Shown: in pieces, positions 1 through 28,043 of the stretch
How the letters are laid out: every line of letters begins with the position of its first letter
Position numbering within the stretch: the stretch's first letter is position 1
From: a virus
Virus record (IMG/VR): IMGVR_UViG_3300034121_001870
Location: 1 to 28,043 of that record
DNA length: 28,043 bases
Direction: 5' to 3' (one strand)
Translations under genes and position numbers: made by a program
The notes under the pieces: generated by a model
Told to the model about the DNA's origin: nothing
Seen by the model: the letters and a program-made list of their open reading frames with translations, nothing else
Databases searched by the model: none

Positions 1-416
1 TAACCAGCACCTTTAGATAACTCAGTTACATCCTTTCCAGTGAAGTTCTTACCAATAGGCGACTTCTTATACTCGAATGTAGCCTTAGCAAGAGCAAGTG
101 CTTCAATTGCAGTTAATGTATCAAGTGCAATGTAATCATATATGGGTTTACCAGCTTTAACGTTTTCAGCTTTAATTAACTTAGCTGTTTCTTCTAATAA
201 TGAACCTAAACCAGTACCGCTAGTAGCAGCTTCTTTGCGTAAGTTAAGTTTAGTACCATCATAATATTCACTACCATCTTCTAGGTCAATAAGTAGACTA
301 TTAGGTAATTTAAGTAAATTTGACGACTTACCTATTTTGGTATTACTTAGTAACACTAAAATACGTGGATCTGTATTAGCTGCAACTGTACTTGTTCTTG
401 GTAATATTAAAGCCAT
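1..416 (-). CDS. Sak4-like / AAA_24 phage nucleotide-binding ATPase, C-terminus cut by window edge
   Basis: The gene starts at ATG 416 after an AGGATAG-type site and runs off the left edge, so only about 138 residues are visible. Near residue 20-30 it has a P-loop of the form LLSNTKIGKSS, followed by a strand ending LLIDLEDG. Further on comes YDYIALDTLTAIE, which fits the Walker B strand of phage RecA-like Sak4 or AAA_24 proteins. The first glycine of the usual GxxxxGK[ST] loop is a serine here. Proteins of this family bind nucleotide and assist single-strand annealing or recombination in phage replication. It is the downstream-most gene of the minus-strand cluster visible. The family call is from memory of motif layout; a DnaB- or RecA-like ATPase of another subgroup is the main alternative. 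Confidence 0.75.
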   Translation of the reverse strand, partial: MALILPRTSTVAANTDPRILVLLSNTKIGKSSNLLKLPNSLLIDLEDGSEYYDGTKLNLRKEAATSGTGLGSLLEETAKLIKAENVKAGKPIYDYIALDTLTAIEALALAKATFEYKKSPIGKNFTGKDVTELSKGAG

Positions 417-423
417 GATAAAT

Positions 424-630
424 CTATCCTAATTGTTCTAAATAAACTGGTTCAACTACGTCATTAATCTTAACTAAAGTACATTTAACATTTAGTGCTA
501 ATTGTATTTCAGCTACTTCACCATATAATACCACACTTTCAACAGTAGCTGTAGTATTTAGAAAGTGAACTCTATCGCCTTTAGTTAAGGTTTGACCATA
601 TTCACGTAACACGGTTGTCATTATCCACAT
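424..630 (-). CDS. small beta-rich protein of unknown function (68 aa)
   Basis: The ATG at 630 overlaps the stop of the upstream gene in TAATG style and follows GGAGA at a good distance, which favours this start over the internal Met4. Residues 17-62 alternate hydrophobic and polar positions (KGDRVHFLNTTATVESVVLY and onward), a pattern seen in small SH3- or KOW-like barrels. No catalytic motif is visible. It sits 7 nt before the Sak4-like gene and is presumably co-transcribed with it. Function unknown. Confidence 0.7.
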   Translation of the reverse strand: MWIMTTVLREYGQTLTKGDRVHFLNTTATVESVVLYGEVAEIQLALNVKCTLVKINDVVEPVYLEQLG

Positions 631-905
631 TAGAGTTTCTCCAGTATGTCAAGGTAATTTAATTGAGGTTCATTAGTATCAGGTAACTCATTATATATAT
701 GCGACCCTACATCTTCAAAATGTCTATCAAAGTCATTTTCTAATTTATCCTCATTGTCTTCTAAATCAGAAAAATCAGCAGATATTGATCTAACAATGTA
801 ACGATTTATTTGAGCGTGAGTTAATCTATTATCTATTTCCTCAATATTTCCACCATATACATTATGTTCAATCATCCAATCTCTAATATCTTTTTTAGTT
901 ATCAT
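630..905 (-). CDS. small acidic protein with C-terminal NYLDILEKL (91 aa), paralogue of next gene
   Basis: The protein begins MITKKDIRDWM and ends NYLDILEKL. The gene immediately upstream (902-1153) begins MFTKKDVRDWM and ends NYLDILDKL, so the two are tandem paralogues. They also share a middle part with RSIS followed by an acidic stretch and a (S/N)xIYNxLPD segment. The pair overlaps by 4 nt, typical of translational coupling. The protein is acidic and predicted mostly helical, with no known catalytic motif. The same C-terminal ending recurs in two other small proteins of the window (3929-4186 and 17214-17378). Function unknown. Confidence 0.75.
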   Translation of the reverse strand: MITKKDIRDWMIEHNVYGGNIEEIDNRLTHAQINRYIVRSISADFSDLEDNEDKLENDFDRHFEDVGSHIYNELPDTNEPQLNYLDILEKL

Positions 906-1153
906 AATTTATCCAGTATGTCAAGATAGTTAATAGTAGGTTCACCGTCTGGTAAATTGTTATAAATACTATTTCCGATCTCTCTAAAGTAAGCATCAAA
1001 CTTAGATTCCCAATTATCATCAAAGTTACATGATATACTTCTAAGTGTTTTATCACCTTTATCTCTTAGTCGTTTGTCTACTTTTTGAACACAATCAACA
1101 TTATATACATTGTTATTAATCATCCAGTCTCTAACATCTTTCTTAGTAAACAT
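902..1153 (-). CDS. small protein with C-terminal NYLDILDKL (83 aa), tandem paralogue
   Basis: This is the upstream member of the tandem pair described at 630-905. Shared blocks are the N-terminal TKKDxRDWMI, the central RSIS, IYNxLPD, and the C-terminal NYLDIL(D/E)KL. It differs by lacking part of the acidic middle. It lies 2 nt downstream of the clpS-like gene and overlaps the next gene by 4 nt, so all three are probably one transcript. No function can be assigned; duplication and retention of both copies argues that the protein is useful to the element. Confidence 0.75.
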   Translation of the reverse strand: MFTKKDVRDWMINNNVYNVDCVQKVDKRLRDKGDKTLRSISCNFDDNWESKFDAYFREIGNSIYNNLPDGEPTINYLDILDKL

Positions 1154-1155
1154 AC

Positions 1156-1428
1156 TTATCTCTCAACAGTTACAGTTAAACCTTCAGCTACCAATTGATC
1201 TCTACTTAATTCAGCAAACGGTTCGGTATATTCTCCTATTAGAGCTTTACCATTAAGATGAGCATCCATCATAATTTGATAACTCTTATCATTACTGAAT
1301 CCCATAACACTACTTAATATCTCTACTACAACTTCAGCAGGAAATATGCTGTCATCATGTAGAATCAACTTAACCATTGGAGCATTGTTAACAAATGTAA
1401 ATGGCTCTCTATCTAATACTGCATTCAT
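1156..1428 (-). CDS. clpS: ClpS-like adaptor of the Clp protease (N-degron recognin)
   Basis: The 90-residue product matches the ClpS fold along its length: a strand followed by LHDD, then PAEVVVEILSSVMG, then SYQIMMDAHLNGKALIGEYT, and a final strand ending TVTVER. Cellular ClpS binds proteins with destabilising N-terminal residues and hands them to ClpA/ClpC. The acidic pair in LHDD and the His in MMDAHLNGKA correspond to the N-degron pocket of bacterial ClpS. The usual pocket Asn appears replaced by His, and there is one extra residue before the conserved Pro, so specificity may differ. The start at 1428 follows GAGGAGA and overlaps the upstream gene by 4 nt. A role in steering host proteolysis is an inference. 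Confidence 0.85.
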   Translation of the reverse strand: MNAVLDREPFTFVNNAPMVKLILHDDSIFPAEVVVEILSSVMGFSNDKSYQIMMDAHLNGKALIGEYTEPFAELSRDQLVAEGLTVTVER

Positions 1429-1775
1429 GATAAAGTCTCCTCGTAATTGTTTAATGCTACTTGATATACGAATAATGCAGCTATTTGACCACGTAATACT
1501 GCATTACGATTAATTATCCATTGTTGATAATCAATTTCAATGTAATCTAGAGCAGGATCACTAGATTCTAATCGGAGTTGATGAAGACGATGATCTGCAT
1601 TACGTTGAGCTATTTGTAATTCAATATCTCGAATTAAATACTCACATTTAAGTATGGCAGTTCGGAGTCTACTTAATGTTAGAAATTTAGGAAACTCTGT
1701 CCAATTGATAGTTTTAATGTCTAGAAAGCGAGGGATTTTGATGCGTTGGTCTGTTCCAGTTGTAGTAGTAACCAT
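1425..1775 (-). CDS. conserved-looking helical protein of unknown function (116 aa)
   Basis: No family recognised. The protein is predicted mostly alpha-helical from about residue 30 (LSRLRTAILKCEYLIRDIEL and onward), with amphipathic spacing and several Arg residues. Its start lies inside the 3' end of the NTase-PcfJ gene (55-nt overlap) and its stop overlaps the start of clpS, so it is embedded in the same polycistron. A GAGG lies about 11 nt before the ATG. Overlap with clpS suggests coordinated expression, nothing more. Confidence 0.65.
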   Translation of the reverse strand: MVTTTTGTDQRIKIPRFLDIKTINWTEFPKFLTLSRLRTAILKCEYLIRDIELQIAQRNADHRLHQLRLESSDPALDYIEIDYQQWIINRNAVLRGQIAALFVYQVALNNYEETLS

Positions 1776-3181
1776 GATATGACAGCCTCAATTCGTGTTT
1801 TAATAGTTGGATATTTGTCAGGTGTCGTGTTGTTGAATGATTTACATTGAACTAATCTCCAATCAGTTATATTATCAGTTCTAGAATATTTACCTTGAGT
1901 AAATTCACAAGTAAATCTATACTTATCAATCCTAATACTGAAGATGCGGCGATTCTCATTAAGTGAATTAGAATAACCACCTACACAGTGATTATTGTAT
2001 CTACCTTCATCTAGTAACTGAAGTGACGTAACTAACTCAATTACTTCACATTCTAGGTAATGTCTATTAATTGGTAATGGAGTTACAAGTACCTTATTTA
2101 ATCTAGTTTTAGCAGAGTTAATTTTTTCAGTTATCTTTAACTTAATTAAATCAATACATAGAGAATCCGAATAAAAGTCATTCTCCAATATACCGATAAC
2201 CCATTTACCTTCAACAGTAACTAGATTCTCAATGAACTTAAATAACTCTAATTGTTTATCTAGATTAAGATACTTAAACCAATTAGTAATTCCACAATGT
2301 TCATTAGTAAACTTACCTAATCGCGCCAATTGAGTTTTCCAACCTTTTGGAAGAGTAAGAAAATAGGTATCATTAGTTATGCAAGCATTACATAACGTGA
2401 TGTATTTAAGTAACTCTAACCATTGTTCCTTCTGATGCTTCTTAACTCCATTACCATATAGTCGTTGAAATACTATGTTCCAGTGTTTATCATTAAATGT
2501 TAATGACTTTAACTCAGGTATTACATAATTAGAAATAACTTCAATTGGTTTAGTATCAACTAATTTAAAGTAATTAGATATCAAATTCAACTCATCTTCA
2601 TTAATAAATGATGGTACTTTAATAGCTGTTGGAGCATACCGTGGATTAATATGTGCGATATAACCAACTATCTTATCTACATCTAAATAAGCATCGGGAT
2701 ATTGACGTTTCTTCTTCAGTAATCTAAATAAAGTAAATTTAGAGGTATTGAAGTTAACTACTTCTATTTGTCGTGTTACTAGAAATGCCGCAAATTCTGG
2801 TCTATATATTAATTGTTTAGTAGCTAGATCAATACCAATCATGCAACAATTAATATCGAATGTGTCAATGATATTAGTTAGTTTACTATTAATTGAATAA
2901 ATATCAACATAGTTAATATTATCAACTCTACTAACATTAAAGATTGTAAAATGCTTATCTTGGTAATATAAGTTTTTAATTTTATGAGTTGTTCGATAAT
3001 AGTCACAATTTTCTTGTGTAACTAATCTAAATACATCTATATCACCATACTCTGATTTAAGTCCAGTTACTGCACTATATACAATAGATGCAATTGCTCC
3101 ACCAGCTACAACACCTTCATTTGGTAGTTCTGGTAATTGAGATAGAATAAAGTCACTTGTGATAGTATCTAAAGTCATCAT
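1721..3181 (-). CDS. nucleotidyltransferase-PcfJ fusion protein (486 aa)
   Basis: Two parts can be seen. Residues about 20-55 carry VVAGGAIASIV followed by YGDIDVFR, the G-G...S and D-x-D pattern of Pol-beta-type nucleotidyltransferases, as in CCA-adding enzymes and minimal NTases. Residues about 390-480 carry LLDEGRYNNHCVGGY and then RIFSIRI, the signature of the PcfJ family found on plasmids and phages, whose biochemistry is not established. The middle is helical and unassigned. The start (two adjacent ATGs, 3181 and 3178) has no Shine-Dalgarno sequence and lies 9 nt after a GC hairpin. Activity could be nucleotide transfer to RNA, protein or a small molecule; the sequence does not say which. 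Confidence 0.8.
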   Translation of the reverse strand: MMTLDTITSDFILSQLPELPNEGVVAGGAIASIVYSAVTGLKSEYGDIDVFRLVTQENCDYYRTTHKIKNLYYQDKHFTIFNVSRVDNINYVDIYSINSKLTNIIDTFDINCCMIGIDLATKQLIYRPEFAAFLVTRQIEVVNFNTSKFTLFRLLKKKRQYPDAYLDVDKIVGYIAHINPRYAPTAIKVPSFINEDELNLISNYFKLVDTKPIEVISNYVIPELKSLTFNDKHWNIVFQRLYGNGVKKHQKEQWLELLKYITLCNACITNDTYFLTLPKGWKTQLARLGKFTNEHCGITNWFKYLNLDKQLELFKFIENLVTVEGKWVIGILENDFYSDSLCIDLIKLKITEKINSAKTRLNKVLVTPLPINRHYLECEVIELVTSLQLLDEGRYNNHCVGGYSNSLNENRRIFSIRIDKYRFTCEFTQGKYSRTDNITDWRLVQCKSFNNTTPDKYPTIKTRIEAVISWLLLQLEQTNASKSLAF

Positions 3182-3190
3182 AATTAAAAT

Positions 3191-3209
3191 GGGGTAAATT
3201 AATTACCCC
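3191..3209 (-). terminator. GC hairpin between genes, terminator-like
   Basis: A 7-bp stem GGGGTAA/TTACCCC with a 5-nt loop, followed on the minus strand by ATTTTAATT. It sits between the stop at 3218 and the start at 3181. The T-rich tail is short, and it is the only leader of the next gene, so it may instead be an mRNA processing or translation element. Confidence 0.55.
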
Positions 3210-3217
3210 AACTAAGG

Positions 3218-3613
3218 TTACTCTATGTCTAATAAATCATCTACATCTTCTACTACATCTTCTGCAACTGGAACATCAGTTAATTGATTTACAACTAATG
3301 CAAGTGATTCACCTTTAGTTTTCCAATCAACTAAACTACTAATTAACTTCAATAACTCAACATTAGTATAATTAAGTTCCTTAAACTCATCAACTATACG
3401 TGTTGAAGCATTCATAACTTCAGGATATAATGTGAGTATTGCTGCTAGTATTAATTCAAACTTACTCTTAATGTCAGTACCACATGACTCAGCATACTTG
3501 AGGATACCTGTTTTACGACGTTTAGGAACACCTGCTATTAAGGCTGCTATCTTTTTTCTAGTTTCATCATCCAATCCCAACTCAACCAATGAATTTTCTA
3601 TGTTATTAGCCAC
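3218..3613 (-). CDS. unknown protein with acidic C-terminus (131 aa), GTG start
   Basis: I place the start at GTG 3613 because TTGGAGAAA lies just upstream at the right spacing; the longer open frame to 3682 has no such signal and would overlap the plus-strand gene more deeply. The protein starts VANNIENSLVELGLDDETRK, has a basic patch PKRRKTGILKYAESCG around residue 30, helices in the middle, and a strongly acidic C-terminus (EDVVEDVDDLLDIE). No family recognised. It overlaps the divergent plus-strand gene by 14 nt at their 5' ends. Confidence 0.7.
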   Translation of the reverse strand: MANNIENSLVELGLDDETRKKIAALIAGVPKRRKTGILKYAESCGTDIKSKFELILAAILTLYPEVMNASTRIVDEFKELNYTNVELLKLISSLVDWKTKGESLALVVNQLTDVPVAEDVVEDVDDLLDIE

Positions 3614-4778: not shown

Positions 4779-5076
4779 AATACACTCCAGGTTTAGGTAA
4801 ATCTCTATCAGGTAATCCAGTTATAATTGTAATTATCTCTAAATCAATACTAGGTATATAATTACTTAAATACATAGAATTACATGACTTAAATGCTGTA
4901 AATAAATCAATTTCTCTATTAAAGAACTTATCATCTACAGGTAAGAAAACATAGGATTGATAATCATCTTCTTGTTCTAAACATAATGCTAGATGTTTAA
5001 CACCGTTATAATTAACAATTCCCATCATTAAAAAATCATACCATTCATTATCTAATTGATATAGTAGTTTATTCAT
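4768..5076 (-). CDS. unknown small protein (102 aa)
   Basis: Two starts are possible: ATG 5094 and ATG 5076. I prefer 5076 because its ATGAATAA overlaps the stop of the ATP-grasp gene, as elsewhere in this region, but neither has a strong ribosome-binding site. The protein (MNKLLYQLDNEWYDFLMMG at its start) is beta-rich, acidic and aromatic. No motif recognised. Coupling to the ATP-grasp gene suggests they are made together. Confidence 0.6.
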   Translation of the reverse strand: MNKLLYQLDNEWYDFLMMGIVNYNGVKHLALCLEQEDDYQSYVFLPVDDKFFNREIDLFTAFKSCNSMYLSNYIPSIDLEIITIITGLPDRDLPKPGVYYGL

Positions 5077-5845
5077 TCCAGTAATCGTACTCATTAATTG
5101 CTAATTTAGAAACAGTTTCAACTACAGCCGCCAAATCACACTGGTATAAATTGCTACATGATAGGCTGTTCAACTCAAGTACATGATAACTACCATTGGC
5201 GAAACATACATCTACTGTATAGATATCATCTGGACACCAAGTTAATTCATTTAATATTGATTGAAGATATTCAATTGCTGCGTTAGATGTTACATTTGTT
5301 TCAATTGGCAGATATTGAGATCCTGCAACGATAGTATTACCAGTAACTACAAATCTCCACTCCCAATCTACTTTTTTAACTGGTGAACTAATAACTAGTA
5401 ACTCAGGATGGAGATTCAACTTAATGAACTCATCTCTAGTATAAGTTCCACCATTAAACTCCTTGAATCCAATATCAGGTCGAACAAATAATCTATCAGC
5501 ATACCATCGTCTAATTAACTCAGATCCTGACATCATGGTGTAATTGGTATTCAACATATACTTACCCCAGTAAGCATAATATGTTGAACAATTAAAGTTA
5601 TCACGGTTACAATATGTGCCAGGAATCCATAGTGTGTACTCCACTTCACTACTTACATTAAGTGAACCTCTGAATATAACTGGTTGACTTAGTAGTTTAG
5701 TATATCGTTGATTACGTGCTATATCGTCAACGTAGCAATCATGCTTATAATCAATCTCAATCACATTATGACCTTGTTTTCTTACCTCTTCAATAAGTTG
5801 AACTTCGTTATCAAATATACCATGTTCAATAACCCAAGTGACCAT
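5069..5845 (-). CDS. ATP-grasp protein, R2K-like clade (258 aa)
   Basis: The layout fits the short R2K-type ATP-grasp proteins that are common in phages: an N-terminal pre-ATP-grasp part (residues 1-55), PVIFRGSL near residue 55, a central WEWRFVVTGNTIVAGSQY around residues 161-178, and a C-terminal metal/ATP site in VDVCFANGSYHVLELNSLS. The last includes the conserved Asp and the E-x-N pair. ATP-grasp enzymes join a carboxylate to an amine or thiol through an acyl phosphate. In phage genomes R2K proteins are suggested to modify proteins or small molecules; the substrate is not known. It is embedded in a run of small unknown genes. Confidence 0.75.
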   Translation of the reverse strand: MVTWVIEHGIFDNEVQLIEEVRKQGHNVIEIDYKHDCYVDDIARNQRYTKLLSQPVIFRGSLNVSSEVEYTLWIPGTYCNRDNFNCSTYYAYWGKYMLNTNYTMMSGSELIRRWYADRLFVRPDIGFKEFNGGTYTRDEFIKLNLHPELLVISSPVKKVDWEWRFVVTGNTIVAGSQYLPIETNVTSNAAIEYLQSILNELTWCPDDIYTVDVCFANGSYHVLELNSLSCSNLYQCDLAAVVETVSKLAINEYDYWNE

Positions 5846-10395: not shown

Positions 10396-11571
10396 TTACT
10401 TAGTTACTGTTGCAGATGCTAATGCAGGAATTTCATTCATAGTTTTTCTAGCTTGATTACCTACCGTGTTAATAAGATCATTTCTCTCTTTAAATAAACT
10501 ATCTGGAATATCACTAACGTTAATAATTTCAACCTCCATAAGTTGAAGTGCATTAACTAGAGCTAATATAGATACAACATCTTTTTTCGCCTTATATTCA
10601 TTAATCTTATCAACGGCTCTATCAAAGTGAGTCTTAAATGTATCAAGACTAGATTTAGCATCATTGTAAATCTTCTGTTGTTGTATTTCTTCTTCTAAGT
10701 TAGATAGAAGTGATTGATCCCAACTTGGAAGATAATTGAGTACATTAAGTTGTTCAATAGTAGCAACTGATTTATTACTCAGTAACGCCTGAGACTTAAT
10801 CATATTAATAGTCCACATAAACATACGAGGACTAATAATACGACCTTCATTACCAGATTTCTCAGCTAGAGAACACAGAATACCTTGTAACTCTTTATCT
10901 AATTTAACTTCTTCACGAGAAATGCGAGCATCATCAATTTGAGCAATAGTTAACTTGCTATTATCATTCTTCTTATTACTAATAGCACGAATTAATCTAG
11001 AATAATCACTACTATCATGACTATCCCATTCATGACGTACAATAATGAAACGTTGAAGAAACGCATCATAACTATTAGCTTCAGATGGAGGTAGCTGTTC
11101 AATGCGATCATATGGATTAACGTTAGTTGCTCCAACTAACAACCTATTAATACTCTTAACTACTTCGCCATTAAGTGTTAATTGCTTATTAGTAATTATA
11201 GCTTTAAGTACGCTAAGTGCTTGAAAACTAGCATCTAACATCTCTTCATAAAAGAAGCTATGATTACGTAATATACTAGCTCCTACATTATAGTGAGCTA
11301 ATGTAATGTCTTCCTTATCAGTCTTAGTAGTACGAGCTATTGCACCACCTTTAATTAAACTAGCTGTAGTCTCAGGATCACACTCTAACATTGCAGATGA
11401 TCCATCAATGTTGTCAAATACAGCTTTAATCATCTCAGTTTTACCGTATCCTCCCTTACCATATAACATAAGAGGAATACCAGATACAACAGCTAATTCC
11501 ATAGAGTTAGCAAATGTAGCGGTGTTAATAAATCCAGCGTTAGATAAAACGTTGTTTAAATTGAATGTCAT
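10396..11571 (-). CDS. MoxR-family AAA+ ATPase, copy 1 (391 aa)
   Basis: MoxR features in order: Walker A GKGGYGKTEM near residue 38, MLECDPETT and KGGAIART after it, Walker B FFYEEMLDA near 107, sensor 1 LLVGATNVNP near 145, and the sensor 2 SPRMFMWTI near 246. The last 110 residues are coiled-coil-like. Start ATG 11571 follows AGGAGAA. MoxR ATPases act as chaperones that insert or remove metal-dependent or assembled components together with a VWA partner. It forms a pair with the VWA gene downstream and is a paralogue of the protein at 12723-13880, with which it shares MLECDPETT, IKGGAIART and LDASF.AL..LKA.IT.K. Confidence 0.88.
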   Translation of the reverse strand: MTFNLNNVLSNAGFINTATFANSMELAVVSGIPLMLYGKGGYGKTEMIKAVFDNIDGSSAMLECDPETTASLIKGGAIARTTKTDKEDITLAHYNVGASILRNHSFFYEEMLDASFQALSVLKAIITNKQLTLNGEVVKSINRLLVGATNVNPYDRIEQLPPSEANSYDAFLQRFIIVRHEWDSHDSSDYSRLIRAISNKKNDNSKLTIAQIDDARISREEVKLDKELQGILCSLAEKSGNEGRIISPRMFMWTINMIKSQALLSNKSVATIEQLNVLNYLPSWDQSLLSNLEEEIQQQKIYNDAKSSLDTFKTHFDRAVDKINEYKAKKDVVSILALVNALQLMEVEIINVSDIPDSLFKERNDLINTVGNQARKTMNEIPALASATVTK

Positions 11572-11580
11572 GTGATTCTC

Positions 11581-12726
11581 CTAGATATGATTACGATATG
11601 TACCACCACTAGCAATAGATAACTTCTGTAAGTTATAATTACTGCTATCTAATATAAAACTATGTAACTTAAATCCATCTAAATCAGGTAGAGTTAAGTT
11701 ACATTCATCTTGACCATCATTAATTACAATTAGTTGTTTATTAGTTGATATTACACCTCTAGACTTACTAATAGCCTCTTTAATACACCTCTGAACATCA
11801 GTACCCCCTTTATCAAATGATGTATGATAGATAGCATTCCAGATACTAGTAACATCTGAATCCTTAGTTACGTGATACCAATCGAAACAAGTTCTCTCAA
11901 AGTAAGAAAAAAGTAGTTCACACTCGCCCGATTGGACACGCTTAATTATGTTGAATATGATACCAAGAGCCTTATTCATCTTGTTATCACGTTGCATAGA
12001 ACCACTAACATCACATATTAGCGTTATAAATGAAAGTTTATCCTCCTTCCGATATCGTTCAATAATGTGAGATTCATTATTAATGATGCGATAACTGAGA
12101 TAATTAACTGGATTAATCAACTCAATTGGATTGATTAGATTAAGTTCATCAAATCCGCGTATAGGTCTAGTTTCGCAGTATTCACCAGTAGAATCGGCGA
12201 TCATAGTATTACTAGTATCTATGATACCTAACTTATCAAGAGTGTCACTAGCACGTAATACCTCAGCTAATTTATAACTGATTTCACCAGATAGAAGTAA
12301 CTTCTCATCGGCGGATCTACGTCCCAGTGATTTAACAGTTTCCTTAATACTCTTAACCTTTTTTCTTACCTCATGATTATTATTGAATATTGGTAATGTT
12401 AATTCACTATTACTATTATCATCACCAGTTTCACCATTAGCTAATAACTCAAGTATGTTAAATACTTGTTCTAATGGAGATCCCGATAAACTACTAGCTA
12501 ATGATGGTACTTTCTCTAGGAAAGATTGAACATTGACTTCATAATCAATGTTATCTATACACTGTTGCTGCATATATGCAACTGAAGTTAATGTACCTCC
12601 AGTTAACATATTAAACATATCAGTAACTAAAGTAGGACAATAGTTATAAATGTCGAATTTAGCAGCAACTACATCCATTTCATCAGTAGTTGGAGTAACT
12701 GCATCTAGATGTGCGATAGTTCTCAT
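11581..12726 (-). CDS. VWA-domain protein, copy 2 of the MoxR-VWA module (381 aa)
   Basis: VWA domain with MIDAS CDVSGSM near residue 240 (DxSxS), GGTDVQRC near 310, and VINDGQDE near 338. The N-terminal half differs in length from copy 1 but the segment from RPIRGFDEL to the end aligns well. Its start overlaps the stop of its MoxR partner by 4 nt (ATGA), which implies coupled synthesis in equal amounts; copy 1 instead has a hairpin at that junction. The MIDAS is intact in both copies, so both should bind metal. Confidence 0.87.
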   Translation of the reverse strand: MRTIAHLDAVTPTTDEMDVVAAKFDIYNYCPTLVTDMFNMLTGGTLTSVAYMQQQCIDNIDYEVNVQSFLEKVPSLASSLSGSPLEQVFNILELLANGETGDDNSNSELTLPIFNNNHEVRKKVKSIKETVKSLGRRSADEKLLLSGEISYKLAEVLRASDTLDKLGIIDTSNTMIADSTGEYCETRPIRGFDELNLINPIELINPVNYLSYRIINNESHIIERYRKEDKLSFITLICDVSGSMQRDNKMNKALGIIFNIIKRVQSGECELLFSYFERTCFDWYHVTKDSDVTSIWNAIYHTSFDKGGTDVQRCIKEAISKSRGVISTNKQLIVINDGQDECNLTLPDLDGFKLHSFILDSSNYNLQKLSIASGGTYRNHI

Positions 12727-13880
12727 AGTTCAATTGCAACCATTAAGTTATCTCGTGCAATAGCAACTTCATTTAGAAGTGTGCGAAATTCTAACTTAAC
12801 TTCATTGTATTTAACTTCAGTATCATCATCATACGTAACTGTAGTTAAAAATTTATCATACAATTTACTGATTGATGTGTGACATACAGCATAGTTGTAA
12901 TAGTTACTAACAGAGGTATTAAACATACGTCTAGCTGTAACTAATCTACTACTAAAGTTATCTAACTTTTCATTAGATACCTGTCTCAATTCAATCTCCT
13001 CAATTGCTTCATCAACTTCATCCCAATCAACGCTCCAGTAACTTAGATAATCAATAACTCTGAAATCGCATCTCTCAACTACATTAGACCCACGCAATAA
13101 TGCAGCACTTTTAATTAATCGCACTGTCCATTGAAATGCTCTAGGACTAACAGTATTACCACTATTAGCACTATCTTCAGCTAACTTAGCTAATAGTCGC
13201 CATAAGTCAATATTAAATTCAATTAATTTAACATCATTACGCCATTTATCAATGTCAGTTAACTCAAATTGAACAACTGGTAATTCGTTAACTGATGGAT
13301 ATAATGCAACATAATCGTTAGCATTATGAGATTTCCAACCATGTTCAACTATCATGAACCTCTGAAGAAATGCAGCACAACTATTACGTTGATTCTCACG
13401 TACTGTAGATGTTACAGATGTGGGATTAATGTTAGTCGCACATACTAGAATCTTGCAGTTATTAATGATCTCATCACCATTAATATGTATTTTCTTACCT
13501 GTAATCACAGCCTTCAGGAAACTAAGTGCATTGAAACTCGCATCTAATACTTCTTCTAACATGAAGTAGTCATGCTGTAGTAGCGAATTAGCCACATTGT
13601 AATACGCTTCAGTTAAACTACCACCTTCTTGATTAATGGTTCTTGCAATTGCGCCACCTTTAATAGCAGCACTAGTTGTTTCAGGATCACATTCAAGCAT
13701 TCCGAAACGTCCATTGAACAGAGATAATGCACTAATTAACATCTCTGATTTACCATATCCACCTTCACCATGATAGATGATTGGGATGTCAGCTAATACG
13801 CTCAACATAAATGTATCGGCAAACTCATCTACATTAATAAATCCATCATTCTTGAGCTTATTGATTAAGTTATCTAACAT
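12723..13880 (-). CDS. MoxR-family AAA+ ATPase, copy 2 (385 aa)
   Basis: Walker A GEGGYGKSEM near residue 38, MLECDPETT and IKGGAIART, Walker B YFMLEEVLDA near 108, sensor 1 LVCATNINP near 145, sensor 2 SPRAFQWTV near 243, then a helical C-terminal region. Start ATG 13880 follows AGGAGTTT. It is the first gene of a four-gene block (MoxR2-VWA2-MoxR1-VWA1) that looks like an old tandem duplication, because the two copies have diverged well beyond trivial difference. The cellular target is unknown. Confidence 0.88.
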   Translation of the reverse strand: MLDNLINKLKNDGFINVDEFADTFMLSVLADIPIIYHGEGGYGKSEMLISALSLFNGRFGMLECDPETTSAAIKGGAIARTINQEGGSLTEAYYNVANSLLQHDYFMLEEVLDASFNALSFLKAVITGKKIHINGDEIINNCKILVCATNINPTSVTSTVRENQRNSCAAFLQRFMIVEHGWKSHNANDYVALYPSVNELPVVQFELTDIDKWRNDVKLIEFNIDLWRLLAKLAEDSANSGNTVSPRAFQWTVRLIKSAALLRGSNVVERCDFRVIDYLSYWSVDWDEVDEAIEEIELRQVSNEKLDNFSSRLVTARRMFNTSVSNYYNYAVCHTSISKLYDKFLTTVTYDDDTEVKYNEVKLEFRTLLNEVAIARDNLMVAIEL

Positions 13881-23785: not shown

Positions 23786-24601
23786 TTATTTCAATTTACT
23801 GCACATAGCACTACACACAACCCGAAAACCGCAGAAGTCGTAACGATTGACGCGCAAATTCCACCTGCGAAACGCAGACCGACAGCGCCCAGCAAAGCTG
23901 TCCCAAGAACCGCCACGAAGTACAGCGCGTCCTGATTTGTCACTTAGCTTATCATCACTACTAAACCATGCACTGCCATCTGTGGGTGCATCTTTATAAT
24001 TATCATGCCAGTCATCCAAACACCACTCATATACGTTACCGTGCATATCGTATAAGCCAAAATTATTCGCTACTCCAAAGCTGCCTACTTCTGTTGTTTC
24101 TCTTCTATAAACTCCTTCAACTCCATCGCCATACGTGGATTCACCATCATAATTAGCTAAATCCGTTGTTATCGTTTCTCCAAAGTGAAATGGTGTGGTA
24201 GTTCCGGCTCGACAGGCATATTCCCATTCTGCTTCACTGGGGAGACGGTAGGTTCTACCTGTATATTGTGAAAGGCGATCGCAAAACTCAACTGCATCAT
24301 ACCAAGACACTCTTTCAACAGGGCGATTATCACCTTTAAAGTTAGATGGATCTTGCTCTAACTCACGGTTCACTTGGGGTAACTGAGCAACAAATCGCCA
24401 TTGTGCTTGGGTGACTTGATATTTACCCATAAAAAAGGGTTCTATTGTAACTTCATGTTGTGGACGTTCATCATCATTGCTACCTTCCTCATTTTCTGGT
24501 GAACCCATGATAAAAGTGCCACCGGGGATAGCCACCATTTCTAGTTGAGTGTCGTTAGCTAAGTCTTCTAATGCCAAATCTTTTATTTCTTCTAAGTTCA
24601 T
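23786..24601 (-). CDS. FGE-sulfatase / C-type-lectin fold protein, likely DGR-diversified target (271 aa)
   Basis: The protein follows the FGE-sulfatase outline: [20 protein letters not shown] near residue 22, [20 protein letters not shown] near 48, [19 protein letters not shown] near 93, [17 protein letters not shown] near 118, [17 protein letters not shown] near 182, and RGGSW...CRSA...GFRVVC at the end. In cyanobacteria and their phages this fold often serves as the variable binding protein of diversity-generating retroelements. Between RGGSW and GFRVV, where such proteins usually carry Asn-rich codons, this one has D, S, F, R, W, L, Y, F and C. It contains the only HIP1 site in the window and lacks GTAAGAAAA, so recent host origin is likely. 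Start ATG 24601 follows AGGAGAAA. A true formylglycine-generating enzyme is less likely. Confidence 0.85.
23816..23917 (-). other. putative DGR variable region (3' end of the lectin gene)
   Basis: Read on the minus strand, the codons between the invariant RGGSW and GFRVV are consistent with AAC/AAT templates changed at adenines: GAC AGC TTT, then CGC, TTT, and later TAC GAC TTC TGC, while the A-free codons TGT CGG TCT GCG are the conserved CRSA. No second copy (template) of this stretch is seen elsewhere in the window. Confidence 0.55.
24275..24282. other. HIP1 octamer GCGATCGC
   Basis: Highly iterated palindrome of many cyanobacterial chromosomes. This is the only copy found by eye in 28 kb, inside the lectin gene, which points to a host origin of that gene. 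Confidence 0.8.
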
Positions 24602-25218: not shown

Positions 25219-25407
25219 CTAACTAATTTTCACCTCAACATTAGATTTAGGTTTATTAGCATATTCAACTGACAGTCGTTCTACTAACTTATCATTAGCA
25301 GCTTGATCTATCTCACTTGTATCTATCGTATATGAGGATACGACGTTTCCGTTACTAAATAAATCAACTTTCCATTTACAATCTTTACAAGTTTTTTCTT
25401 CCATCAT
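25219..25407 (-). CDS. small CxxC protein (62 aa)
   Basis: Begins MMEEKTCKDCKWKVDLFSNG, with one CxxC pair, and ends in an acidic then beta-like tail (NVEVKIS). Two adjacent ATGs (25407, 25404) without a clear Shine-Dalgarno sequence. A zinc or redox role cannot be decided from one CxxC. The start lies about 30 nt after a terminator hairpin. Confidence 0.6.
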   Translation of the reverse strand: MMEEKTCKDCKWKVDLFSNGNVVSSYTIDTSEIDQAANDKLVERLSVEYANKPKSNVEVKIS

Positions 25408-25436
25408 CTGTATAACTCATTCACTTAAAAGAGAGA

Positions 25437-25452
25437 GGGGCTTGATGTCCCC
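25437..25452 (-). terminator. intrinsic terminator after the 83-aa gene
   Basis: GGGG/CCCC stem with an 8-nt loop followed on the minus strand by TCTCTCTTTT, immediately after the stop at 25458. Confidence 0.65.
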
Positions 25453-25457
25453 GCTGT

Positions 25458-25709
25458 CTAATCCTCCAGACTAGTTATCCTATCCTCAATTTGAGAAAGA
25501 AGATTGTCAGCCACCTTACCAAAGAAGTATAATACTTCTTTGTTCTCACCTGTAGGCTTTAGAACCACTACCAAGCGTGATTGGTCACTTCCCGAGGTAA
25601 GTTTATTACCCAGCGGTGTGTATTTGTATCCTGCTACTTCATCAAGTATGAAGCCTCCAACTGCTGCTTGTGTGTCAGAACCTCTTGGAACATAAATAAA
25701 GTCTGTCAT
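25458..25709 (-). CDS. unknown protein (83 aa)
   Basis: ATG 25709 follows TATAGGAGATTAAAG. The product (TDFIYVPRGSDTQAAVGGFI, then SRLVVVLKPTGENKEVLYFF) is beta-rich with a helical end. Codons use more G and C than those left of 23 kb. It marks the start of the compositionally different right end. No family recognised. Confidence 0.65.
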   Translation of the reverse strand: MTDFIYVPRGSDTQAAVGGFILDEVAGYKYTPLGNKLTSGSDQSRLVVVLKPTGENKEVLYFFGKVADNLLSQIEDRITSLED

Positions 25710-25752
25710 CTTTAATCTCCTATATTATGACTAATTACCAATATAGCTGCTA

Positions 25753-25872
25753 TCAAATGGAAGCTGCTTTAGTGCCGAACCCTCTTGGTGGTTGCAACTT
25801 AGTAGTTGTGAATTTAACTGGATCTGGGTTGAGTTTACCGCGAACTTGAGATTTGCGTTGTTTGTCGTTCAT
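25753..25872 (-). CDS. basic small protein (39 aa)
   Basis: The frame begins MNDKQRKSQVRGKLNPDPVK and ends GFGTKAASI. It is basic and Pro/Gly-rich, likely unstructured. ATG 25872 has no Shine-Dalgarno sequence and follows the poly-T tail of a terminator hairpin, so its expression route is unclear. Confidence 0.5.
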   Translation of the reverse strand: MNDKQRKSQVRGKLNPDPVKFTTTKLQPPRGFGTKAASI

Positions 25873-25900
25873 AAATTAAAAAAAAAGTTAATAAAAAAAT

Positions 25901-25926
25901 AAGTAACTAGCGCGAACTAGTTACTT
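25901..25926 (-). terminator. strong intrinsic terminator
   Basis: Perfect 10-bp stem AAGTAACTAG/CTAGTTACTT with a 6-nt loop, followed on the minus strand by ATTTTTTTATT and a further run of nine T. Follows the stop at 25950. Confidence 0.85.
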
Positions 25927-25949
25927 AGTGTTAAAGGATTACCTATTCG

Positions 25950-26321
25950 TTAGTCATCTAAAGACACTAACGAATATACAATCCTTGTTTTTATGTCGGT
26001 ACTTTGTTCTGTTAGTGGTAAGTCCACTAACTCGGAATCAAGCAATAAAACTTTAATTCCAAGATTTGTTAACTTAATTAAAGTCAGTCCCGTGACTGAA
26101 GAGGCTATTATTTGATCGCCTATGTTTAAGGCGATTTTAATCGTGTTCACGACATCTTTGTCGTCGAAACAATATTCTATCTCTTCGACAATGAGGTAAT
26201 TTCCATTTTCTTCCTCCAAATAAAAGAATAAATCATTGCCTCGACTTTCTCTCTCGTAGGAAAAGTCGGGACTAATCCCTAACTTTTCGTTAAAGTCGCA
26301 GGAAATAAAAGAATAAATCAT
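25950..26321 (-). CDS. unknown protein translated behind the hammerhead ribozyme (123 aa)
   Basis: ATG 26321 has TTAGGAGTAAGCA upstream, 14 nt after a CCCAC that can pair with the ribozyme's cleavage product. The protein is acidic, alternating strands (FISCDFNEKLGISPDFSYER; YLIVEEIEYCFDDKDVVNTI; GIKVLLLDSELVDLPLTEQS). No family recognised. Its mRNA would begin with the 3' cleavage product of the ribozyme, leaving a 40-nt leader, and would end at the strong terminator at 25901-25926. Confidence 0.65.
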   Translation of the reverse strand: MIYSFISCDFNEKLGISPDFSYERESRGNDLFFYLEEENGNYLIVEEIEYCFDDKDVVNTIKIALNIGDQIIASSVTGLTLIKLTNLGIKVLLLDSELVDLPLTEQSTDIKTRIVYSLVSLDD

Positions 26322-26356
26322 TGCTTACTCCTAAGTGGGTGTATGTAAAGTGACTT

Positions 26357-26414
26357 CCCACGACTACCGGGGTGGTAGTTTCGGACGGTAGCCAGCCGTC
26401 CATCATCAGGTGGG
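26357..26414 (-). ncRNA. type I hammerhead ribozyme
   Basis: Read on the minus strand from 26414: stem I 5' arm CCCAC (26414-26410); core CUGAUGA (26409-26403); one extra U (26402); stem II GGACGG/CCGUCC with loop CUGGCUA (26401-26383); core GAAA (26382-26379); stem III CUACC/GGUAG with loop ACCCC (26378-26364); cleavage site GUC (U 26363, C 26362); stem I 3' arm GUGGG (26361-26357), fully complementary to CCCAC. All conserved core residues are present in order and all three stems are perfect. Cleavage would fall between 26362 and 26361. The extra U after A9 is unusual, but an extra base there is known in the plus-strand hammerhead of chrysanthemum chlorotic mottle viroid. It begins at the base after the stop of the gene at 26415 and splits the transcript between two genes. 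Confidence 0.9.
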
Positions 26415-26738
26415 TTAAACGGTAATAAAAGGCTGCCAACCTGGTTTTACTCGACGGCTTTCTAGCCACTTGAAGTCTTTTAGTTGCTCTTCTAGCTGAT
26501 GTCTAGTGTAATCAGCTTCGCCAGTAAAGCCTTCCATTACGAAAGTGTCCCCTAATGGGGCGCGTTTAACTGGGGTGAGTGGTGTTAGCCAGTCATAATC
26601 ATCGCCTATTTCTTTAATTTCCCCAGCAAGTTTAATGTCAGGGGATTTGGAATAGCCAACCAAGTCTCCTTGGTTTGTTGTGTAAGCGTATTCAACTAAA
26701 GTATAGTTGTAACCATCTACTGTTATTGTTGTTTCCAT
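26415..26738 (-). CDS. unknown protein upstream of the ribozyme (107 aa)
   Basis: I use ATG 26738 (METTITVDGYNYTLVEYAYT) behind AAAGGAAGGAAACA; the open frame to 26855 crosses a strong hairpin and is unlikely to be coding there. Segments include NQGDLVGYSKSPDIKLAGEI, WLTPLTPVKRAPLGDTF and a helix HQLEEQLKDFKWLESRR. G+C is higher than in the left part of the window. No family recognised. Cleavage by the ribozyme would leave its mRNA with a stem I remnant right at the stop codon. Confidence 0.65.
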   Translation of the reverse strand: METTITVDGYNYTLVEYAYTTNQGDLVGYSKSPDIKLAGEIKEIGDDYDWLTPLTPVKRAPLGDTFVMEGFTGEADYTRHQLEEQLKDFKWLESRRVKPGWQPFITV

Positions 26739-26778
26739 TGTTTCCTTCCTTTGTTCAATGAGTATCTGACTAATTAGC

Positions 26779-26819
26779 CAGCAACATCTATCAAGTCTCG
26801 CATTTGATAGATGTTGCTG
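26779..26819 (-). repeat. perfect 16-bp inverted repeat between genes
   Basis: Arms CAGCAACATCTATCAA and TTGATAGATGTTGCTG around a 9-nt loop. It lies 5 nt after the stop at 26825 and about 40 nt before ATG 26738. There is no U-tract on either strand, so it may be an operator, an RNase III-type processing site or an mRNA stabiliser rather than a terminator. Confidence 0.75.
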
Positions 26820-26824
26820 AATAA

Positions 26825-27040
26825 CTAATGATAGTAATGTAGTTTTACTGCACAATAGAACTTATCATCTTCATAGTGATCTAATGCTGTTATAACAGGT
26901 ATATCAACCTTAGATACTACAAAGGTATTAATAACTGTAGTAATTATGAAGTAGTTACTACGTCTAACTACCATTACTATGTTAGATGTATCTATCGCTA
27001 GAACACTTCCTTTTAAAATTGTGTATCCACCCACTGTCAT
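26825..27040 (-). CDS. unknown small beta-rich protein (71 aa)
   Basis: ATG 27040 has GAGGGAAAC about 11 nt upstream. The product begins MTVGGYTILKGSVLAIDTSN and is made of short strands (VMVVRRSNYFIITTVINTFV), ending with HYEDDKFYCAVKLHYYH. No family recognised. Between it and the gene upstream (27041-27163) there are only frames of about 10-12 codons, such as MEIQPNGEEVFI behind AAAGGAC. Confidence 0.6.
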   Translation of the reverse strand: MTVGGYTILKGSVLAIDTSNIVMVVRRSNYFIITTVINTFVVSKVDIPVITALDHYEDDKFYCAVKLHYYH

Positions 27041-27163
27041 TGTTGTTGTTTCCCTCTTCAGTATTTACAACAGCAGTTTAATGACGTGCTTAGGTCGCAA
27101 AGACTATTTACATTTATATAAAAACTTCTTCGCCATTTGGTTGAATTTCCATTTTACTGTCCT

Positions 27164-27565
27164 TTACTTTACTTTTATTTGCTCAATCTCAAGAAACCAC
27201 TTTTTTTCCGCGTCCAATATCTCTTCCAATTTGCTTTCTAATAAGGAAGAAGCGGCATTGGTAGCTTTATCAAACAACTCCTGACTTGTGGCTTTGTAGG
27301 CATCTACACTAACCCAATCATCGTAGACAAAAGATGGGTACTCCGTTTTTCTAATTTGTACCCGAAATTTACACTGTGTTCCGTTATTGTGGTAATGGAC
27401 GCTGACGCAAACGAACTTTTCGTCTTTTAAACCCCTGTATGAAATATCTTCCAGTTTGCGAATAGCCATTGACGAAAGGAATGTTTGGTGATCACTCCAC
27501 TCCCATCCGCTATCTATCAACGCAGGAGAGAGGTCTTGATAAAATTCTAATTCCGATGGTTGCAT
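27164..27565 (-). CDS. unknown protein (133 aa), host-like codon use
   Basis: Begins MQPSELEFYQDLSPALIDSG and has strands KFVCVSVHYHNNGTQCKFRV then a C-terminal helix SSLLESKLEEILDAEKKWFL. The ribosome-binding site is a distant TTGGAA. Codon use is more balanced than in the left part of the window. No motif recognised; the alternation of strands with a long terminal helix is compatible with a small single-domain protein. Confidence 0.6.
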   Translation of the reverse strand: MQPSELEFYQDLSPALIDSGWEWSDHQTFLSSMAIRKLEDISYRGLKDEKFVCVSVHYHNNGTQCKFRVQIRKTEYPSFVYDDWVSVDAYKATSQELFDKATNAASSLLESKLEEILDAEKKWFLEIEQIKVK

Positions 27566-27607
27566 TTTATTTACTATTCCAACACAAATGATTATAAGGG
27601 ATGTATA

Positions 27608-27659
27608 AAAAAATTCACTAGACCTACATCATTTTAAAGATAAGTCTAGTGAATTTTTT
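27608..27659 (-). terminator. strong bidirectional-type terminator
   Basis: Perfect 16-bp stem AAAAAATTCACTAGAC/GTCTAGTGAATTTTTT with a 20-nt loop. The A/T ends give a U-tract on either strand. It separates the membrane-protein gene at 27742 from the gene at 27164. Confidence 0.85.
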
Positions 27660-27741
27660 ATGCTATTTTGGGTCGCTTAAATTTTGTCTGTGTAGACGCG
27701 ATTTCTAACCATCAGTTTAACTTGTATAATCATTTCTCTCT

Positions 27742-27924
27742 TCAGGGTAAGTTGTTGAGCAAGCAGAGTGCGATTGTGATTACCGAAACAGTAAGGACTC
27801 CTACTAAAACCAATAAATAGTCTGTAAAGTCATCTTCATGACGTGCGATTGTCGGAGCAACATAGGAAACAGCAAGGGAAATAACAAGGATTGCTACTAC
27901 ACCCAATAAATTAAATATTCTCAT
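27742..27924 (-). CDS. small two-helix membrane protein (60 aa)
   Basis: I take ATG 27924 (MRIFNLLGVVAILVISLAVS) because TAGGAGACAAA lies just upstream; the frame continues to 27957. Two hydrophobic helices (residues 3-24 and 37-57) are separated by a charged loop TIARHEDDFTDY. The size and topology are compatible with a holin-like protein but also with many small membrane proteins. No lysis genes are near. The last 86 bases of the window hold no gene that I can see. Confidence 0.65.
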   Translation of the reverse strand: MRIFNLLGVVAILVISLAVSYVAPTIARHEDDFTDYLLVLVGVLTVSVITIALCLLNNLP

Positions 27925-28043
27925 TTTGTCTCCTATCTTTGTATTATCTACTAGCAATTAACTAGCAGTAACGAGTAACTAAATTAAATTAATTACCCGT
28001 AACTGATATTTAATGAATAACTGGAATTAAATCTTCTTTTTTG

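Follow-up and report, generated by a model that had tools for sequence, protein, structure and literature searches.

Between two phage genes, a type I hammerhead with an inserted U9.1 and a loop II pseudoknot probably splits the RNA of a short operon

The window, which is the whole stretch of 28,043 nucleotides analysed here, belongs to a virus record of IMG/VR (IMGVR_UViG_3300034121_001870). On its minus strand, two genes of 107 and 123 amino acids are separated by a short intergenic region in which the elements of a type I hammerhead ribozyme lie side by side. Neither gene has a family match in PHROGs or Pfam, and a protein search with the downstream gene finds one relative in IMG/VR. The ribozyme begins, as a preliminary description of the locus had put it, at the first base after a stop codon, with TAA ending at 26415 and stem I starting at 26414. 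The same description placed the cut 40 nt before the next start codon, which agrees with a predicted cut before 26361 and an ATG at 26321. The features of the locus are the following.

26415-26738, minus strand: upstream gene of 107 aa, counted from its ATG at 26738 (ORF reading)
26415-26417, minus strand: TAA stop codon of the upstream gene, abutting stem I (sequence; similar placement in 93 of 122 listed members)
26357-26414, minus strand: type I hammerhead ribozyme, comprising the catalytic core and its three stems (read directly; covariation; model built without the window)
26410-26414, minus strand: stem I 5′ strand CCCAC, pairing with 26361-26357 (both-side changes at 5 of 5 pairs in relatives)
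26403-26409, minus strand: catalytic core CUGAUGA (read directly)
26402, minus strand: extra U between A9 and stem II, U9.1 (read directly)
26383-26401, minus strand: stem II GGACGG/CCGUCC (26401-26396 / 26388-26383) with loop II CUGGCUA (26395-26389) (sequence, covariation, fold)
26390-26394, minus strand: putative pseudoknot 5′ strand UGGCU within loop II (covariation; swap control)
26380-26382, minus strand: core GAA, G12 A13 A14 (read directly)
26363-26379, minus strand: stem III A-CUACC (26379-26374) / GGUAG-U (26368-26363) with loop ACCCC (26373-26369) (sequence, covariation, fold)
26362, minus strand: C17 (read directly)
26361-26362, minus strand: predicted cut, with C17 (26362) on its 5′ side and G (26361) on its 3′ side (analogy with known hammerheads)
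26357-26361, minus strand: stem I 3′ strand GUGGG, the 5′ end of the predicted downstream product (sequence, covariation)
26351-26355, minus strand: putative pseudoknot 3′ strand AGUCA (covariation; G-U to A-U change in L229)
26335-26339, minus strand: CCCAC, predicted to pair with GUGGG as a 5′ hairpin once the RNA is cut (fold; in all five sequences compared)
26328-26332, minus strand: Shine-Dalgarno-like AGGAG (sequence)
25950-26321, minus strand: downstream gene, 123 aa, ATG at 26321 (ORF reading)
25900-25927, minus strand: intrinsic-terminator-like hairpin 3′ of the downstream gene (12 pairs and a T tract)

Elsewhere in the window, a 660-aa protein matched 504 phage records, every one below 60% identity, and a protein search with the two AAA proteins returned no phage record. 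Weak Pfam matches point to a run of MoxR-like AAA, VWA-like and AAA-lid proteins at 10396-13880 (minus strand). An ATP-grasp protein of the R2K clade is encoded at 5069-5845 (minus strand; Pfam R2K_3, E 3.2e-09), and a protein with an FGE-sulfatase domain at 23786-24601 (minus strand; Pfam E 1.1e-55). FGE-sulfatase domain proteins are sometimes targets of diversity-generating retroelements; within the window, no repeats of at least 40 bases involve this gene.

Read base by base, the minus strand from 26414 to 26357 runs CCCAC, CUGAUGA, U, GGACGG-CUGGCUA-CCGUCC, GAA, A-CUACC-ACCCC-GGUAG-U, C and GUGGG, and all the elements named in the preliminary description occupy the places it gave them, in the right order. 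The CUGAUGA is taken by us to span C3 to A9 in the hammerhead nomenclature. The order of core and stems is that of type I (CUGANGA, stem II, GAAA, stem III and NUH, with stem I open to both flanks), with one U inserted at 26402, where the consensus has no base between A9 and stem II. Stem II is 6 bp long. For stem III, the earlier figure of 5 bp covers five pairs that are present, and the stem reaches 6 bp when A15.1-U16.1 is counted. The minimum-energy fold of 26416-26342 (75 nt) is exactly the hammerhead, at -23.8 kcal/mol; the z-score of this fold, at -1.89, is modest, and 7 of 200 shuffles are equally stable. The earlier description mentions neither the pseudoknot of loop II nor the 5′ hairpin that the cut product may form.

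A single match of this kind might be a chance look-alike, or a hammerhead that has decayed and become inactive, and the additional base in the core together with the silence of Rfam would suit such a reading. The covariance-model match that had been proposed as a check did not appear at the gathering threshold; Rfam gave no match over the window at E<=1 and no hammerhead over 401 bases at E<=10, so the window does not match the Rfam hammerhead model. At gathering, Rfam also reported no hammerhead in 13 loci with relatives carrying the extra U (U9.1) and none in 16 loci whose relatives lack the extra base. The failure therefore reflects the coverage of Rfam more than membership, and the missing match of the window looks like a gap in Rfam. 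A covariance model built from 27 relatives, with the window excluded, found the window at 78.7 bits (E 2.1e-20 in 71 kb), these relatives having been fetched with a pattern derived from the window. Model R1 matched in 24 of 24 records searched, with 1 to 7 copies each; the records were chosen as holders of members and thus carry no information on frequency.

The U9.1 search pattern has 21 fixed bases and prescribes two pairs in stem II and two in stem III; it occurs in at least 119 stretches of IMG/VR. Of the 134 matches listed, which include the window and Aphanizomenon phage CL131 and retain near-duplicates, 122 can build every one of the three stems with 3 bp or more; at a similarity cut of 0.80, 47 of 121 members remain. 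The loci of a first, looser pattern were used solely as extra sequence. When the extra U was replaced by A or C, the same pattern was met in only 12 stretches of the whole IMG/VR, and among its 12 matches 9 lack the three stems and 3 are foldable (two with A, one with C). The pattern without the extra base gave 81 stretches and 84 matches, among which 48 fold insert-free and 9 fold better with a bulged G, while 52 of the 84 pass a simpler fold test. The foldable matches thus carry U in at least 122 cases, no extra base in 48, G in 9, A in 2 and C in 1, the G counts being ambiguous since G can slip its pairing. Under the pattern used, no other extra base comes near U in number, and U also outnumbers the form without an insert. 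The earlier statement that the extra U is the only departure is right with respect to the consensus, but under this pattern the U belongs to the commonest form among the relatives.

Natural exceptions to the consensus at this position are also known. According to the text of PMC3705267, the plus-strand hammerhead of chrysanthemum chlorotic mottle viroid has, like the window, one extra base between A9 and G10.1; its natural base is A, and it serves viroid replication rather than a phage operon. In that hammerhead, a U at the extra position raised trans-cleavage 3-4-fold over the natural form with A, and C and G were harmful. The base counts of the phages agree with these viroid data, as far as the text presents them, for U and C, and not clearly for A and G. 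PMC10085705, in the part considered here, permits one or two inserted bases between A9 and stem II. With the U of the relatives and these known exceptions, the extra U departs from the textbook consensus and not from the relatives of the window.

In 84,980 species genomes, the scan gave at least 119 matches, and 40 of those listed pass the three-stem test. They include genomes titled Nostoc, Anabaena, Sphaerospermopsis and Amazonocrinis, as well as at least one locus (L280) which looks like coding sequence. Genomes under the titles Nostoc, Anabaena and Sphaerospermopsis hold ribozymes with the same U and a pseudoknot. A plasmid search returned five matches with E of 3 to 9, and no match was found in E. 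coli genomes.

The fold can be tested by the pattern of changes among relatives. The set consists of 28 hand-picked relatives, filtered beforehand for three stems and selected for similar loop II length, by which the pairing percentages are biased upward. In these relatives, 95.9% of pair cells hold standard pairs, in comparison to 28.5-49.3% in slid versions, and both sides have changed in 132 cells versus 34.6 in shuffles, a number reached by 0 of 500 shuffles. Such both-side changes back all three stems, at 5 of 5 pairs in stem I, 3 of 6 in stem II and 4 of 6 in stem III; the search pattern fixes one stem I base and, in stems II and III, two pairs apiece, which therefore carry little weight. 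A chance or decayed sequence is made very improbable by these compensatory changes, by near-identical copies in other phages and by the benefit of an extra U to a viroid hammerhead (PMC3705267, as described in its text). The non-foldable matches of an equally long pattern, moreover, number 9 in the whole IMG/VR for two letters, and chance or decay is rejected on this A/C control scan together with covariation and conservation.

The pseudoknot joins loop II to the tail that follows stem I (26355-26351), and its partners covary among the sequences compared. With the window included, 85.0% of its cells are paired. With the window excluded, the value is 84.4% versus 73.1% in shuffles, and there are 22 double changes versus 7.5, neither of which is reached in any of 500 shuffles. 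The outermost pair fails in 7 rows and the innermost in 13, and further pair types are no more numerous than in shuffles (282/500). Across 121 usable listed members, the longest helix between loop and tail has a mean of 4.26 as opposed to 3.88 with swapped tails, and 0 of 300 swaps reach it. In the closest relative, L229, the sole change within the 58 ribozyme bases turns a G-U pair of the pseudoknot into A-U.

Copies of the ribozyme were found between different genes. A blastn search with 1 kb around the ribozyme against 50,697 phage records returned one match of 83 bases, covering ribozyme and leader, which lies at an unannotated spot between gp142 and gp141 of Aphanizomenon phage CL131. In this copy one stem I pair is changed from A-U to G-U and the stem III loop is shorter. 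The ribozyme is common to the window, CL131 and the phages L138, L131 and L134, which are 95-99% alike and counted as one group. Compared with window 25401-28043 by blastn and tblastx, none of these phages has any likeness beyond the ribozyme and about 36 upstream bases, and in L138, L134 and CL131 the neighbouring proteins differ from those of the window. A VWA-domain gene lies near the ribozyme in CL131 too. In the CL131 leader, a candidate SAM-II riboswitch was rejected at 26.5 bits against a gathering threshold of 44; the window has no SAM-II match in Rfam.

The occurrence of the same 60-80 bases between other genes in the window, the L138/L131/L134 group and CL131, along with flanking genes in the window that match no family, would fit an active passenger cassette acquired by recombination. 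Such a cassette would cut without benefit, and the place after a stop codon would be merely a harmless spot for insertion. This we consider unlikely. In L229, 57 of the 58 ribozyme bases and 34 of the 35 leader bases are identical to those of the window, although the flanking genes have drifted to 71% (155/219) in the upstream piece and 88% (327/372) in the downstream gene. The covariation, furthermore, shows selection for the fold, and ribozymes of unrelated classes, pistol and twister-like, stand at gene boundaries in the phages L187 and L155, which points to a use for cutting there.

In L187 (minus strand, 259-3101), seven consecutive gene gaps each contain a self-cutting RNA: two pistols, four hammerheads found by R1, and one insert-free hammerhead which was missed by R1 and detected by a descriptor script. 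One gene pair in this row overlaps and has no gap. L155 has Twister-P1-like matches at 582-661 and 3193-3247 (32.3 and 42.2 bits, below the gathering threshold of 67.2), next to gene starts and on the same strand as its U9.1 hammerhead, and L394 holds two Twister-P5 matches. The pistol and twister ribozymes resemble the window case as same-strand neighbours of such hammerheads at gene boundaries in L187 and L155, and they differ from its hammerhead in fold and core; neither class has an Rfam match in the window. Two more unannotated hammerheads occur in CL131 (L437, 350-418 and 1372-1444, both minus strand). One is a type II match of 36.2 bits against a gathering threshold of 37. The other is of type I, has no extra U and overlaps the annotated 24-aa gp130, which is probably not a gene. 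In the main text of the CL131 genome paper (PMC6293099), a word search found neither "ribozyme" nor "hammerhead". In the tested loci, Rfam misses the type I copies and annotation therefore overlooks them, as in this published phage. A further phage, L231, carries near-identical hammerheads with and without the extra U.

The position between the genes follows a rule that can be counted. For the 122 listed members, the longest upstream frame on the same strand (stop to stop) was taken. Its stop codon ends 1-10 bases 5′ of CUGAUGA in 64 members and is the core's own UGA, within CUGA, in 29, so that the two placements together account for 93 of 122 members, and for 33 of 47 after removal of similar ones. 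At control sites shifted by -450, -300 and +300, such placement is seen in 5/117, 6/118 and 7/112. Of two named phages, L438 has an annotated upstream gene that stops at the core's UGA, and in L439 the annotated upstream gene stops immediately 5′ of stem I. Downstream, 116 of the 122 listed members have a start codon with an open frame no more than 150 nt away (median 40 nt), 86 of these 116 with a Shine-Dalgarno match of at least 4 bases, in a count made without a control and preferring ATG with a Shine-Dalgarno among candidate starts. With placement, covariation and the near-identical copy in other phages, the earlier assignment of a type I hammerhead between two genes is well backed, and the ribozyme of the window is real and probably active.

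A stop codon at or in the core would also be expected of a translation-coupled switch. Ribosomes at the stop codon would then cover stem I and the core and delay the cut, while the uncut fold would hide the Shine-Dalgarno in the core. For the window and L229, the best pseudoknot-free fold indeed joins core CCUGA to UUAGG around the Shine-Dalgarno. L138, L134 and L002, however, do not show this pairing in their best folds, and all these folds omit the energy of the pseudoknot; compact packing alone would equally place the ribozyme at the stop codon. We regard such a switch as improbable.

The preferred reading is that a type I hammerhead with a loop II pseudoknot and a U after A9 stands in a short phage operon and splits the operon RNA, and we hold it to be likely. 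From the sequence, covariation and placement, which are direct, we infer the operon, the cleavage, the refolding and an effect on messages and proteins. The hammerhead would fold once the RNA polymerase has passed 26351, ahead of the competing CCCAC at 26339. The predicted cut at 26362/26361 would part the operon RNA into two messages. The upstream message would end shortly 3′ of its stop codon with two hairpins and a 2′,3′-cyclic phosphate, and the message of the last gene would begin with a 5′-OH and a 40-nt leader. The freed GUGGG may then pair with CCCAC (26339-26335), which would hinder re-ligation, give the message a 5′ hairpin and keep the Shine-Dalgarno accessible two bases beyond it.

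Folding calculations for five sequences (the window, L229, L138, L134 and L002) predict that the product begins with five paired bases, with probabilities of 0.63-1.0. Across relatives, 72.3% of the cells of the 5′ hairpin are paired versus 66.4% in shuffles, with 10 double changes versus 5.5 (reached by 7 of 500 shuffles); the number of pairs with double changes is reached in 59 of 500. The mean helix in 47 members is 4.15 versus 3.75 with swapped heads (0/200) and 3.81 with shuffled tails (3/200). The 5′ hairpin of the cut product thus has moderate support from sequence comparison. In pseudoknot-free minimum-energy folds of about 100 nt of uncut RNA, stem I is lost in 5 of 5 sequences, and in L002 the other stems are lost too. 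In the window, this fold (-27.0 kcal/mol, versus -23.8 for the 75-nt ribozyme by itself) joins GUGGG to the downstream CCCAC, and CCUGA of the core to UUAGG at the Shine-Dalgarno. With such competing folds, RNA that is still uncut might become trapped if folding and cleavage of the ribozyme do not come earlier.

Parts of this picture have been known since 2011, namely the gene-flanking phage hammerheads, the pseudoknot and the idea of mRNA processing (PMC3088659, text). The text of that study, by Perreault et al., reports hundreds of bacterial hammerheads of types I-III, many of them near prophages and in clusters flanking genes, with the pseudoknot in about 40% of all representatives. Three tandem arrays cleave in vitro and one in E. 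coli, and the processing of long phage RNAs is proposed. The window shares with these hammerheads, as described there, the core, the type I topology, the intergenic place in a phage, the helix between loop and 3′ tail, tandem copies and the proposed RNA processing. It has the traits of their gene-flanking form, being intergenic, on the coding strand and provided with a 3′-tail pseudoknot, the last by covariation. The text makes no mention of an extra base after A9, and the figures and data set may hold cases. In the literature covered, the U9.1 form was not found for phages; the figures and data set of PMC3088659 and Jimenez 2011 (PMC3048661) lay outside this scope. The hammerhead of PDB 8YDC, as presented in the part of PMC11300833 considered, likewise has a core held by a pseudoknot. 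There, however, the pseudoknot replaces helix II, whereas in the window stem II is a normal hairpin whose loop would pair with the tail after stem I. What is new, with published alignments outside the comparison, is the window member, the dominance of the extra U, the quantified stop-codon rule and the blindness of Rfam at the tested loci.

A self-cleaving polycistronic mRNA, as the preliminary description suggested and as was proposed earlier for phage hammerheads in the text of PMC3088659, is the best reading of the locus. A wider claim is possible yet doubtful: U9.1 would be the main form of a large, unregistered family that punctuates phage operons, in which the UGA of the core is often the stop codon of the preceding gene and thereby links termination to cutting, and in which the 5′ hairpin of the product opens the downstream Shine-Dalgarno. 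If this were true, the faster core found by mutation of a viroid would be nature's own. The role of prokaryotic hammerheads is named as an open question in a 2017 review (PMC6155905, in the part considered). The U9.1 relatives make this role testable, as 93 of 122 listed copies obey one placement rule. Such testing is aided by the other ribozyme classes at gene boundaries of the same operons and by the L231 pair with and without U, which is a natural comparison for the effect of the extra base.
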